From Deltaproteobacteria bacterium (GTDB taxonomy: Bacteria > Desulfobacterota > Desulfobulbia > Desulfobulbales > Desulfocapsaceae), in contig JAPLJF010000032.1 in NCBI GenBank assembly GCA_026388715.1, positions 1 to 64,000 of the forward strand: a stretch of DNA of 64,000 nt, written 5' to 3'. The first letter of the stretch is position 1. Every line of letters starts with the position of its first letter. The notes beneath the pieces are model-generated. The model made no database searches, was not told the DNA's origin, and worked only from the letters and a program-made list of their open reading frames with translations. Shown here piece by piece: positions 34,497 through 39,283 of the stretch. The position numbers were made by a program, and so were the translations under genes.

Positions 34497-34814
34497 ATGA
34501 AGATTATCCATCTGGCTGAGACCAGGACCTTTGACGAAAAAGGTTTGAAGCGGTTCTTGCTCCATGATGCACCTTATTTCAGGATCTTGAATTTCAACCT
34601 GCAGGCGGGGCAGATCTTTCCGGTGCACCACCATCCCGCCGAAGGGCAGGTGAGTATCCAGGTCGTTGAGGGAAGCGGCCAGTTTCTGGGGGAAGACGGG
34701 GCAGCGATTCCTGCCGTGGCCGGTGATATCCTGGTCTGTGATATCAGCGAGCCGCATGGGGTTAAAGCCGATACGGATATGCGCATCCTGGTCACCATTG
34801 CCCCTCCTTTTTGA
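34497..34814 (+). CDS. Small cupin-domain protein
   Basis: 105 residues from the ATG at 34497, which has an AAGGAG ribosome site. Conserved cupin metal motif 1 is HHHPAEGQVSIQVVEG and motif 2 is DISEPHGVKADTD; histidines and Glu/Gln for metal binding are present. Single-domain cupins bind metal and sense or bind small ligands; the function here cannot be deduced. It sits between leuA and a converging selenoprotein gene. Confidence 0.8.
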   Translation: MKIIHLAETRTFDEKGLKRFLLHDAPYFRILNFNLQAGQIFPVHHHPAEGQVSIQVVEGSGQFLGEDGAAIPAVAGDILVCDISEPHGVKADTDMRILVTIAPPF

Positions 34815-34849: not shown

Positions 34850-35107
34850 TTATGGCCGCAGGTTTACCTCTTCCAGAAACCCCTGAATTTTCTCGCGGCT
34901 GAGAAAAAAGCCGGTCAGGGTCGTGTTGCCACTTTTCAGGGTGGGGATAAAGCGAACACCATCCTTCCAGGCCCGCAGAGGGTTGGTGACAATATCTACT
35001 TCTTCAACATGGATGTCAGGCTTGCTGTCGATTAACTCATACAGAGTTTTACGGGCCATGTGGCACCGTGGTCAAAGGGCTGAACGGTAAAGAGTGATAT
35101 TGATCAT
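34850..35107 (-). CDS. Glutaredoxin/thioredoxin-fold selenoprotein with U-P-R-C motif
   Basis: Read through an in-frame TGA at 35072-35074, the minus strand encodes 85 residues starting M-I-N-I-T-L-Y-R-S-A-L-U-P-R-C-H-M-A-R-K. The Sec falls exactly where glutaredoxin-like proteins have the first Cys of CPxC. The rest (EVDIVTNPLRAW, RFIPTLKSGNTTLTGF with cis-Pro) is the thioredoxin fold. AGGAG lies 10 bases before the ATG at 35107. Just after the UGA, GG-U-GCC pairs with GGC-CC around ACAU with a bulged U, a candidate SECIS. A gene caller would wrongly start at Met17. Likely a thiol/selenol oxidoreductase. Confidence 0.75.
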
Positions 35108-35249: not shown

Positions 35250-36215
35250 GTGATTATGCGTCCCCCTCCTTTGTTAACCCTCATCACCGATTTGCGCTTC
35301 CTCGATCACGACACGGGTGGCGATCACCCCGAGATCCCGGCCCGGCTTCAGGCCATTTTTGCCACTCTGGAACAGAGCGATTGTTTCCCTTTCCTCGGTT
35401 TTCAGGGAACCCGTCCGGCAGAAAGGCAATGGCTGGCGGCAGCCCATGATGAGGGGTGGCTCTTTCGTTTTGAAGAGGCGGCTCTCTCCGGCAAGACCTC
35501 TATTGATCATCCTGACAACCAGATCTGTTATGATTCCTTTGAGGTGGCAACTCTGGCGGCTGGCGCCGGACTCACTGCCATTGATCTGCTGGAGCAGGGG
35601 CTGGCGGCAGCGGCTTTCTGTCTGGTGCGGCCTCCCGGTCATCATGCTGAGCGAATCAGGCCGTTTGGCTTCTGTTTTATCAATAACTGTGTGGTGGCGG
35701 CCCGCTACTGGCAACAGCACCATGGCCGGAAGCGGATTGTGGTCTTTGACTTTGATGCCCATCATGGCAATGGCATTCAATCTGCCTTTGAGCGCGAGGC
35801 GGATTCCTTGTATATCAGTATCCATGAGCATCCCAGTTTCAGCTATCCGGGAACCGGGTATGTCGATGAAAAAGGGTTTGGCGCCGGTCACGGCTCTATT
35901 CTTAACCTGCCGCTTTCTCCAGGCGCCGGTGATGAACAGTTTCTGGCGTTGCTTCATGGGCCGGTGGCAGATAAGATTGCCCAGTGGCGGCCTGATGCCA
36001 TGATTGTGGCGGCAGGATTTGATGGCCACAAGGCCGATGAGATGTCGGGTCTGCTCTATTCGACAGGGTTGTATGAAAAGATAGGGCAGAGTGTCCGCCG
36101 GTGGAGCAATATCTACTGCGACGGCAGATTGCTTTCCATTCTGGAGGGCGGGTATGAGTTGACGGTGCTGGGAGAATCGGTTGAGGCGTATGTGCAGGGA
36201 CTTCTATCGCGGTGA
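35250..36215 (+). CDS. Histone-deacetylase-family protein (AcuC-like deacetylase)
   Basis: 321-residue zinc hydrolase: GGDHPEIPARL at the start, LVRPPGHHAERIRPFGFCFIN with the paired His, VVFDFDAHHGNGIQSAF with Asp and His zinc ligands, YISIHEHPSFSYPGTG, and the later Asp ligand and Tyr region. Bacterial members remove acetyl groups from lysines or polyamines. The gene next door encodes a CBS-CBS-ACT protein like AcuB, and acyl-CoA enzymes follow, resembling acuABC. The start could be GTG 35250 or ATG 35256. Confidence 0.9.
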   Translation: MIMRPPPLLTLITDLRFLDHDTGGDHPEIPARLQAIFATLEQSDCFPFLGFQGTRPAERQWLAAAHDEGWLFRFEEAALSGKTSIDHPDNQICYDSFEVATLAAGAGLTAIDLLEQGLAAAAFCLVRPPGHHAERIRPFGFCFINNCVVAARYWQQHHGRKRIVVFDFDAHHGNGIQSAFEREADSLYISIHEHPSFSYPGTGYVDEKGFGAGHGSILNLPLSPGAGDEQFLALLHGPVADKIAQWRPDAMIVAAGFDGHKADEMSGLLYSTGLYEKIGQSVRRWSNIYCDGRLLSILEGGYELTVLGESVEAYVQGLLSR

Positions 36216-36292: not shown

Positions 36293-36928
36293 ATGTATAT
36301 TTCCAGACATATGATCAAGGAACCGCTGACCGTAACGCCTGAGATGTCTCTTCCTGATGCCAGGCGTTTATTGACCGAAAATCATTTCCGGCATCTGCCG
36401 GTGGTGGATCGTGACGGGCAACTGGTCGGAATGATTACCGACCGGGATCTGCGTTCGGCCTATCCGTCTTCCATGCTCACCGAAAGTGAACGCCTTCTGG
36501 CCTATGAGCGGGTGGAGCAGGCGACGGTGGCTGATATCATGAGCACTGAGTGTGTCGGCCTGACCCCTGAATCGACCCTTGATGATGCCCTGCTTCTTTT
36601 TGATCGGGATCGGGTGGGGGCGCTGCCGGTCCTTGATAATGGCCGGGTGGTCGGCATCTTTTCCAACAGGGATCTGCTTGCGGCCTACAAGGAGCTTTTC
36701 GGGGTGGGCGAAAAGGGCTCGGTCTTGCTGGGGATTGAAGATGATGGGCAGGGCGGCCTCATGACCCGTATTGTCACCCTGCTGGAACGGCATGATATCC
36801 CCTTCACCCGTCTGTTGCGCATCCCTGATGCCGAACATGGGAACCGGATCTATCTGCGTCTGAATACCTTCAAGATTGCCTCTGTTGTCAACCTGCTGCG
36901 GGAGGCCGGGATTCGTCCGGCCTTGTGA
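36293..36928 (+). CDS. CBS-CBS-ACT domain protein (AcuB-like)
   Basis: 211 residues: two CBS domains (about 1-60 and 75-135; MITDRDLRSAYPS and GIFSNRDLLAAYKELF are the ends of each) followed by an ACT-like domain (LMTRIVTLLERHDIPFTRLL). This is the AcuB layout from the Bacillus acetoin-utilization operon, where acuC encodes a deacetylase. CBS pairs bind adenosine nucleotides, so this may report energy state to the acetyl-CoA enzymes that follow. 40 bases upstream of the synthetase gene. Confidence 0.85.
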   Translation: MYISRHMIKEPLTVTPEMSLPDARRLLTENHFRHLPVVDRDGQLVGMITDRDLRSAYPSSMLTESERLLAYERVEQATVADIMSTECVGLTPESTLDDALLLFDRDRVGALPVLDNGRVVGIFSNRDLLAAYKELFGVGEKGSVLLGIEDDGQGGLMTRIVTLLERHDIPFTRLLRIPDAEHGNRIYLRLNTFKIASVVNLLREAGIRPAL

Positions 36929-36968: not shown

Positions 36969-39089
36969 ATGAGCCTTGATGTCCTTTTTCGCCCGGAGTC
37001 GGTGGCGGTGATTGGCGCCTCCCGGACTCCGGGCAAGGTTGGTCATGATATCCTGGCCAATCTGGTGCAGGATGGTTTTGCCGGCGTCATTGTGCCGGTG
37101 AATCCGGCGGCTGACACCCTGTTGAGTCTGCCCTGTTACCCCTCGCTTGCGGCCTGGGGCAAGGAGATCGACCTGACCGTGATCGTGGTGCCGCAAGCCA
37201 TGGTTTATGCGGCGGTGGAAGACAGTATCCAGGCCAAGACCAAGGCCGTCATTGTCATCACCGCCGGATTCCGGGAGATCGGGCCGGAAGGACTGGCGCA
37301 GGAAAAGAAAGTGGCCGAACTCTGCCAGCGTCATAATGTCCGGATGCTGGGACCAAACTGTCTGGGCCTGATCAATACTGAAAACAGGCTCAATGCCTCC
37401 TTTGCCGGCCGGATTCCGGAGCCTGGGGGAATCTCCATCTTCTCTCAATCAGGGGCCTTGTGTACCGCCATGCTGGATCTGGCCGCAGGCCGCCATCTGG
37501 GGCTGGCCAAGCTGATCAGTATCGGCAACAAGGCGGATATATCCGAGGTTGATCTGCTCTTGTATCTGGCCCGCGATGAACAGACTAAGGTGATTGTCGG
37601 TTATCTTGAAGATATCGCCACCGGCAATAATTTTGTGAAGGCAGCTGAAGAGGCCGCCACCCGGAAACCGGTGATTATCCTGAAATCGGGAACCACGATC
37701 GCCGGCCTGAAGGCGGCGGCGTCGCATACCGGAGTGCTGGCCGGGGTTGATACCGCTTATGGCGCGGCCTTCAAGCAGTCAGGCGTGGTGCGGGCCGACA
37801 CCTTTGACGCCCTGTTTGATTATGCCACGGCCCTGTCCATGCAGCCGCTGCCAAAGGGGAACAGAATTCTTATCGTCACCAACGCCGGCGGCCCGGGAAC
37901 CATGGCCGCCGACGCGGTAGAAAAGGCCGGGATGCACGTGGCGGAACTTGATCGCAACACGGCCACCGCGCTCAGGGCGCAACTGCCCCAGGCGGCAAGT
38001 GTCGGCAACCCGATTGACGTGCTTGGCGACGCTGATCCGGAGCGCTATGTGGCCGCCATTGAGGCGGCCCAAAATGACCCTGCCGTTGATGCCATCCTCG
38101 TGATCCTCACCCCCCAGGCCATGACCAGACCGGCAGAAACTGCCATTGCCATTGTCAGGGCCCTTGACGGCTCCAAACCGGTGGTGGCCTCTTTTATGGG
38201 TGGGCGGGATGTGATGCCGGGCCGCCAGGAGCTTGCCGCCGCCGGACTTCCCGATTATGACTCGCCGGAACGGGCCGTCTCCGCTTTGAAAGGCATGGTG
38301 GAATATGCGGCCTGGAAACAGCGGCCGCCGCGTCTGGTCACCAGGTTCCGGGTGAACCGGCGGCGGGTGGAGCGCATTATCAGCCGCCGTCAGCGCACCG
38401 GGATGCTCCAGCTGGGTGAGGTGAAGGGAAAAGACATCCTCGGGGCCTATGGGTTCCGGGTTCACGATGGAGCCCTGGCCGGCAGCACCGACGAGGCGGT
38501 AGAGATAGCGGAGCGTATCGGCTATCCCGTGGCCATGAAGATCGTCTCTCCCAATATTGTCCATAAAAGCGATCTGGGCGGGGTGATGCTCAATCTGGCC
38601 AATGGCGAGTCGGTTGGCGATGGCTATGACCTGATGATGTTGAAGATCCGCAAACGGGCGCCGGACGCCTTAATTGAAGGGATCTATGTCGAGCAGATGG
38701 CCAAGAAGGGTTTGGAGGTTATCATCGGCATGACTCGTGATCCCCAGTTCGGGCCCATGCTCATGTTTGGTCTGGGCGGCATTTTTGTCGAGGTGATGAA
38801 GGATGTGACCTTTCATCTGGCCCCGATCACCGAAGAAGAGGCCATCCAGATGCTGAAATCTACCCGCTCCTATGCCATGCTTGAAGGCAAACGGGGGCAG
38901 AAAGGGGTGGATATCACGGCCATTGCCTCGGGCCTGCAGCGGATCAGCCAGCTGACCACGGATTTTCCCCAGATCCTCGAGCTTGATATCAATCCGTTTA
39001 TTGTCGGAGAAGTTGGTTCCGAGCCGGTGGTGGCGGACGTGCGCATGACCCTGGCCCCATTGCCAGAGGAGGCCGTCGCCAAAAAATAA
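36969..39089 (+). CDS. Acetate-CoA ligase (ADP-forming), fused alpha and beta subunits
   Basis: 706 residues in the order CoA-binding, succinyl-CoA-synthetase-like, then ATP-grasp. FRPESVAVIGASRTPGKVG starts the CoA-binding domain; ISQSGALC-like IFSQSGALCTAML and the phospho-His segment AASHTGVLAGVDTAYGAAF (about 254) follow; the ATP-grasp half has GYPVAMKIVSPNIVHKSD and DINPFIVGE. It interconverts acetyl-CoA, ADP and phosphate with acetate, CoA and ATP, giving substrate-level ATP. AAGGAGCTG precedes the start. Central to the acu-like cluster. Confidence 0.93.
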   Translation: MSLDVLFRPESVAVIGASRTPGKVGHDILANLVQDGFAGVIVPVNPAADTLLSLPCYPSLAAWGKEIDLTVIVVPQAMVYAAVEDSIQAKTKAVIVITAGFREIGPEGLAQEKKVAELCQRHNVRMLGPNCLGLINTENRLNASFAGRIPEPGGISIFSQSGALCTAMLDLAAGRHLGLAKLISIGNKADISEVDLLLYLARDEQTKVIVGYLEDIATGNNFVKAAEEAATRKPVIILKSGTTIAGLKAAASHTGVLAGVDTAYGAAFKQSGVVRADTFDALFDYATALSMQPLPKGNRILIVTNAGGPGTMAADAVEKAGMHVAELDRNTATALRAQLPQAASVGNPIDVLGDADPERYVAAIEAAQNDPAVDAILVILTPQAMTRPAETAIAIVRALDGSKPVVASFMGGRDVMPGRQELAAAGLPDYDSPERAVSALKGMVEYAAWKQRPPRLVTRFRVNRRRVERIISRRQRTGMLQLGEVKGKDILGAYGFRVHDGALAGSTDEAVEIAERIGYPVAMKIVSPNIVHKSDLGGVMLNLANGESVGDGYDLMMLKIRKRAPDALIEGIYVEQMAKKGLEVIIGMTRDPQFGPMLMFGLGGIFVEVMKDVTFHLAPITEEEAIQMLKSTRSYAMLEGKRGQKGVDITAIASGLQRISQLTTDFPQILELDINPFIVGEVGSEPVVADVRMTLAPLPEEAVAKK

Positions 39090-39283
39090 CTATAATGATA
39101 CAGTGTCGTCAGCGGCATAAGGTGCCGTAAACCGAAAGATCAAGAAAAAGCCATTGCTCTTTCGATAACGGCACCTAAGCCGTCGTCAAAAAATAACTAT
39201 AACGATACAGTGTCGTCAGCGGCATAAGAATCCGTAAATAAAATAAGCAAGAAAGGCTTTGCTCATTTTATAACGGCTTCTAA
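39078..39283. repeat. Double palindrome and direct repeat between acyl-CoA genes
   Basis: Two hairpins: AAGGTGCCGTAAACCGAAAG / CTTTCG-ATAACGGCACCT (39117-39177) and TCCGTAAATAAAATAAGCAA / TTTGCTCATTTTATAACGG (39228-39278). Each is preceded by the direct repeat AAAAAATAACTATAA-GATACAGTGTCGTCAGCGGCATAA (39081-39120 and 39188-39227). Same family as the repeat at 32529-32582; may also stabilise or process the transcript. Confidence 0.7.

Follow-up and report, generated by a model that had tools for sequence, protein, structure and literature searches.

The systems closest to the locus reported here are the bacterial selenocysteine (Sec) thioredoxins and glutaredoxins, the selenoprotein families UXX-star and TIGR02187, and the small thioredoxins of the MJ0307 family. 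TIGR02187 is entered in a 2026 review as a homologue of the AhpF N-terminal domain, and a passage of the same review gives the rules for a bacterial SECIS element (bSECIS): a loop of 3–9 nt, an upper stem of 4–16 bp, a minimum free energy (MFE) of at most -7.5 kcal/mol, a G within the first two nucleotides of the loop (usually as G[G/U]) and a spacing of 16–37 nt from the UGA (PMC13188914). The string 'UPRC' is absent from this review and from a 2022 review (PMC9312934, PMC13188914); as most motifs appear in their tables as UxxC only, one of the thioredoxin or glutaredoxin families listed there may overlap with the present one. A literature search on 'UPRC' with selenocysteine returned no paper. 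The part of a 2006 survey that treats Desulfotalea psychrophila lists 12 selenoproteins, with no thioredoxin or glutaredoxin among them (PMC1794560), and the section of the deep-Sep paper on Desulfolithobacter dissulfuricans GF1 reports 22 known and 0 new selenoproteins (PMC12013277).

The locus lies in the window, the whole 64,000-nucleotide stretch of DNA analysed here. It indicates that an uncultured relative of sulfate reducers very probably places the rare amino acid selenocysteine at the active site of a small protein whose relatives use Sec or Cys. The minus strand from 35107 to 34850 holds an 85-residue open reading frame that runs from an ATG (35107–35105) to a TAA (34852–34850) and translates as MINITLYRSAL-TGA-PRCHMARKTLYELIDSKPDIHVEEVDIVTNPLRAWKDGVRFIPTLKSGNTTLTGFFLSREKIQGFLEEVNLRP-stop. 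Its sole in-frame stop is the TGA at 35074–35072, codon 12, in the context L-[TGA]-P-R-C. The original prediction had placed this TGA exactly at the first position of a CPxC redox motif, and it does occupy the first position of [U/C]-P-R-C; in all 73 gene copies read, the codon is TGA, TGC or TGT. The predicted continuation of the frame upstream to an ATG with a good ribosome site is likewise borne out, with an AGGAG 10 nt 5′ of the ATG (35122–35118, minus strand) that is present in relatives too. As was also anticipated, standard gene calling removes the active site: a plain listing of open reading frames, taking the TGA as a stop, keeps just a 69-residue frame starting at the ATG at 35059 (35059–34850, minus strand), from which the UPRC motif is missing. 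Across the window, 199 TGAs have an upstream start and at least 40 open downstream codons; 5 of them pass a motif-plus-stem-loop filter, and the codon-12 TGA has the longest downstream frame among these 5. The homologue evidence for a real in-frame TGA is far stronger than the result of this filter.

The fold of the protein is predicted with confidence. An AlphaFold2 model built from 17 rows with Cys in place of Sec (pLDDT 93.2, pTM 0.83) has the element order E-H-E-H-E-E-H and supports a thioredoxin fold. With this Cys-for-Sec model as the query, Foldseek returns Escherichia coli thioredoxin and its kin (2trx, TMq 0.82, rmsd 1.5, probability 1.00). Among PDB sequences, the family profile matches the small thioredoxin 1fo5 best (E 3.9e-12), and 1nho ranks third; 1fo5 is MJ0307 of Methanocaldococcus. 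Thirteen positions are invariant in 17 members (S9, L11, U/C12, P13, R14, C15, L22, E24, P43, I54, P55, G66 and F77), and the invariant I-P pair is taken for the cis-Pro loop. The residues N-terminal to the TGA are also conserved as protein, S9 and L11 being invariant and T5 and Y7 nearly so. The original prediction had called the product glutaredoxin-like. Since the predicted fold is that of thioredoxin, with E. coli thioredoxin as the nearest structure, and the closest sequences are those of MJ0307-type small thioredoxins, this label is only partly right. On this model, the UPRC protein would work like a small thioredoxin, filed under no named family here.

The alternative that survives best accepts a true selenoprotein and assigns the Sec to metal or metalloid binding rather than disulfide exchange. 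In its favour, a passage of the 2026 review suggests a possible role as metal ligand for the Sec of the UXX-star, SaoB and SaoC proteins (PMC13188914). Against it, the full [U/C]PRC motif and the I-P pair are invariant in 17 members, the predicted fold is that of thioredoxin, and none of the 10 annotated neighbour proteins is obviously a metal-resistance protein, although one has a putative zinc- or iron-chelating domain. Metal binding is thus unlikely, and disulfide exchange at the UPRC motif is the preferred reading.

Homologues were collected at three depths. A close-relative scan of a GTDB contig collection identified 12 relatives, 75–93% identical, from metagenome-assembled genomes labelled Desulfobulbaceae or Desulfocapsaceae/Desulfocapsa, plus one Desulfoarculaceae and one Proteobacteria. 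Codon 12 is TGA in 10 of these and TGC in the other two (L032 and L034). When the order's 257 genomes were searched with the family profile, 164 had a match at E<=0.001; a few of these matches, with E near 1e-4, may represent other thioredoxins. Among the 150 profile matches listed, 65 have one internal stop, in each case TGA, and 85 have none. One of the TGA forms is in a genome (G458) matched by its length to D. dissulfuricans GF1; in view of the 22 known and 0 new selenoproteins given in the cited section for that organism, the gene is either among those 22 or was missed. A further genome (G514) is matched, likewise by length, to a second genome screened by deep-Sep. A draw of 395 genomes from across the phylum gave 9 matches at E<=1e-6; 7 of them, each scoring at least 113 bits, fall within the order, and the remaining 2, outside it at 30–32 bits, are taken for generic thioredoxins.

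For codon-level comparison, 60 regions from whole genomes were picked for spread over genera, 7 of them being, as judged by length, contigs already included among those of the 12 relatives. All passed the motif pattern [CU]PxC and then [CU]PRC. Codon 12 is TGA in 29 and Cys in 31, and P-R-C comes next in every one; homologues with CPRC in place of UPRC, for which the original prediction had advised a search, do exist, those read without the TGA carrying Cys at the aligned codon. Together with the window and the 12 relatives, these regions make up the 73 gene copies, 66 of which differ from one another in the segment compared (35 TGA and 31 Cys). The 35 TGA genes are not independent, since 11 come from the window's genus. 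None of the 35 has a further stop within the 59 codons after the TGA, and the other two frames over the same 59 codons are closed in 35/35 and 34/35. Between the window and 10 TGA relatives, dN/dS after the TGA is 0.07–0.30. The comparative evidence very strongly supports recoding at codon 12.

The window genome (G000; 2.97 Mb in 36 contigs, 94% complete) was searched for selA, selB, selC and selD, and all four were found. SelA is matched at E 8.8e-185, SelB at 392.5 bits, over the cut-off, and SelD at E 6e-113. The tRNA-Sec scores 70.6 bits and has the anticodon TCA according to ARAGORN. The selD gene (L018:1501-2439) carries one in-frame TGA of its own, so the selenophosphate synthetase of this genome is probably a selenoprotein too. 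A second tRNA-Sec candidate (L011:1501-1599) lies over the Rfam cut-off at 58.5 bits and was rejected, as ARAGORN does not call it; G376 and G357 likewise have a similar second match of 99 nt over the cut-off. With this machinery in place and Cys at the aligned codon of homologues, neither condition that the original prediction named as refuting it holds, and the proposal of an overlooked selenoprotein with an in-frame TGA is supported.

Across the order, SelA is matched in 214 of 257 genomes, in 211 of them over the cut-off. SelA, SelB and tRNA-Sec are all present in both Cys-form genomes from the window's genus (G357 and G376). The 150 matches listed include 65 TGA genomes, of which 58 have a SelA match and 7 (G501, G502, G557, G564, G478, G448 and G450) have none with the SelA family model. 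Four of these 7 were examined further: SelB is present in all four and tRNA-Sec over the cut-off in three, and the window genome's own SelA, used as a query in a search run without a positive control, matched none of the four. G501, a genome of 2 contigs (L138, L141), has the TGA form, SelB and tRNA-Sec, with no SelA by either the family model or the window's SelA. Because it consists of just 2 contigs, its missing SelA is not easily put down to draft gaps. G557 and G564 (95–99% complete) show the same pattern.

The machinery also bears on a second alternative, that the TGA is read through as another residue, either as Trp, if the genetic code is a variant one, or as Cys or Arg through near-cognate decoding. 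UGA read-through by other tRNAs is known in principle. Here, however, the genome holds a full Sec system that includes a tRNA-Sec with the anticodon TCA, the alternative residue in the 60 regions is Cys and never Trp or Arg, and a Sec-type stem-loop accompanies the TGA forms, so that decoding as a different amino acid is very improbable.

This stem-loop is not the one first proposed. The original prediction described a hairpin with a bulged U after the TGA, and such a hairpin does exist at 35069–35051 (minus strand), covering nt 6–24 counted from the T of the TGA. It nevertheless breaks two of the published SECIS rules, its ACAU loop beginning just 10 nt after the TGA and containing no G, and it was rejected as the SECIS element. 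The next hairpin, AACUC-UGUAU-GAGUU at 35048–35034 (minus strand), satisfies the bSECIS geometry in loop, stem, G and spacing, with the loop 28 nt after the UGA and a G at loop position 2 followed by U, and it is conserved. The bulged-U hairpin is located between this hairpin and the UGA. Of the two, the second is most likely the SECIS.

A scan for such elements applied the loop, stem, G[G/U] and spacing criteria, required a stem score of 4 or more, in which each G-U pair counts as half, and left out the energy rule. It finds a qualifying hairpin in 30 of the 35 TGA genes, against 3.1 expected under synonymous recoding, and in 4 of the 31 Cys genes, against 3.5 expected. The five TGA genes below the threshold are L101, L103, L105, L106 and L109. 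Over 51 nt from the TGA, the MFE is -14.8 in the window and at or below -7.5 in 33 of the 35 TGA genes, and it is -4.5 for the window's 33-nt hairpin segment alone; the passage that states the -7.5 rule does not specify the stretch to which it applies.

Relative to synonymous recodings, the folding energy of nt 3–48 after the UGA has a z of -1.45 in the TGA genes and -0.04 in the Cys genes (p 5.5e-5), and the excess is weaker when the 11 genes of the window's genus are left out (p 0.012). For two other windows near the TGA the p values are 0.0094 and 0.0061, becoming 0.021 and 0.11 without the window's genus, and the excess is absent from two control windows further downstream. The window gene on its own is not significant in a 33-nt folding test (z -0.73).

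The stem-loop occurs in two registers. The 20 genes of the window's clade have their loop, in most cases UGUAU or UGGAU, 28 nt after the UGA; 100% of cells are paired and two pairs show double changes. A further 15 genes, from other families and genera, have theirs, in most cases CGGGC, CGGGU or CGUGC, 21 nt after the UGA, with 92% of cells paired and double changes in 4 of 5 pairs. Sliding the partner by 1–3 columns lowers the pairing to 13–41%, and in either register set neither the covariation score nor the percentage paired is reached by any of 500 shuffles. Two further measures are not exceptional throughout: the number of doubly changed pairs is reached by 9/500 and 57/500 shuffles in the two sets, and the number of pair types by 500/500 and 363/500. 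The SECIS-like stem covaries, with compensatory changes.

The weakest alternative, an ordinary stop that leaves a pseudogene or a 69-residue protein begun at the ATG at 35059, agrees with the standard listing of open reading frames and is extremely improbable given the low dN/dS after the TGA, the lack of any further stop in the 35 TGA genes, the conservation as protein of the residues before the TGA, the tie between stem-loop and TGA forms and, a strong point, the intact homologues that have Cys at this codon.

The best explanation, held with high confidence, is a small thioredoxin-fold oxidoreductase with an attacking Sec12, decoded from UGA by means of a stem-loop 28 nt on, and a resolving Cys15. 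In this mechanism, SelB and tRNA-Sec would decode the UGA at codon 12, prompted by the short stem-loop within the coding sequence. Going by what is known of the family, Sec12 would then attack a disulfide, or a related bond, in the substrate, and the mixed intermediate would be resolved by Cys15, UPRC standing in place of CPRC. Selenium incorporation, substrate and reductase are parts that we infer. Because the neighbours change between clades, the working guess for the role is a general disulfide reductase.

The gene is flanked in the window by a convergent cupin (34497–34814, plus strand; cluster in 12/61 regions) and a divergent set. This set comprises a histone-deacetylase-family protein (35253–36215; 23/61), a CBS-domain protein (36293–36928; 25/61), a CoA-binding/ATP-grasp protein that its domains assign to the ADP-forming acyl-CoA synthetase type (36969–39089; 23/61), all on the plus strand, and a CoA-transferase/GNAT protein; each of the four clusters is found in 23–25 of 61 regions. 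Between the acyl-CoA-synthetase-type and CoA-transferase/GNAT genes, a near-duplicate stretch, ataactataaYgatacagtgtcgtcagcggcataag, was noticed by eye at 39080–39260. Two contexts recur, one of deacetylase-type, CBS and acyl-CoA-synthetase-type genes and the other of ftsH-like, folP-like and class I adenylate cyclase genes. The cyclase is upstream on the same strand in 17/61 regions and is the next gene in 16 of these. A membrane-type protein of ~280 residues with a Na/Ca exchanger domain (L078:6242-7084; one representative scanned) is the next gene downstream on the same strand in 17/61 regions. Neighbour annotations (adenylate cyclase, PFOR, deacetylase, CBS and others) rest on one representative per cluster, and the clusters called ftsH, folP and carB are presumed to be such from our own reading of the sequences. 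No common substrate is obvious across the two recurrent contexts in the 61 regions and, since contexts differ between clades, the neighbourhood is not used to infer one.

A tree of the 66 proteins, which has 85 columns and many unresolved forks and does not set the direction of change, requires 11 Sec/Cys changes, at least 6 of them forced by supported branches. L032 and L034, two of the four SECIS-qualifying Cys genes, belong to the window's genus and are placed among TGA forms. Both retain a complete SECIS-like stem-loop with Cys at codon 12, and for this reason they are read as recent Sec-to-Cys changes. The two registers, 28 or 21 nt, imply relocation of the SECIS or independent gains of Sec. 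Whether all parts hold jointly, namely an unnamed selenoprotein family of UPRC mini-thioredoxins that within the phylum is essentially confined to one order, has swapped Sec and Cys repeatedly with the Sec machinery mostly kept and uses two SECIS registers, is an evenly balanced question. If they do, the family could be a natural experiment on the reasons for using selenium in a protein. The genus that holds both Sec and Cys forms offers closely matched natural pairs for tests of the costs and benefits of Sec over Cys.

By comparative evidence, the UPRC protein represents a probable selenoprotein family, perhaps unnamed, of a kind already known. No named family was found for it in the literature searched, and it may have been sighted elsewhere before. 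It adds a redox selenoprotein that is common in its order and that is truncated by gene calling without Sec recoding.

In comparison with known systems, the window protein stays below every Pfam and NCBIfam cut-off. Across 17 members, matches to NCBIfam at E<=0.001 are to models of related thioredoxins and glutaredoxins, led by TIGR00411 (17/17). The protein is below the gathering scores of thioredoxin PF00085 (18.0 versus 23.5), glutaredoxin PF00462 (18.4 versus 22.9), Glrx-like PF05768 (21 versus 26) and Thioredoxin_3 PF13192 (18.0 versus 24.8). It resembles UXX-star and the TIGR02187 protein disulfide oxidoreductase, selenoprotein families of glutaredoxin- or thioredoxin-like character whose motif contains Sec, but matches them only at E 0.03 to 0.2, far under their cut-offs, with single other members at E 5.7e-5 to 7.7e-4. 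Like the small thioredoxins of the MJ0307 family (TIGR00411; 1fo5, 1nho), it has about 85 residues and a CPxC-type motif near the N terminus; unlike them, it stays at 29.7 bits where the cut-off is 92.75, has Sec for the first Cys and reads PRC where 1fo5 has PHC. With the bacterial Sec thioredoxins and glutaredoxins (UxxC; PF00085 and PF00462 in Table 1 of the 2026 review, PMC13188914), it shares a Sec at the N-terminal position of UxxC and a thioredoxin-type fold.
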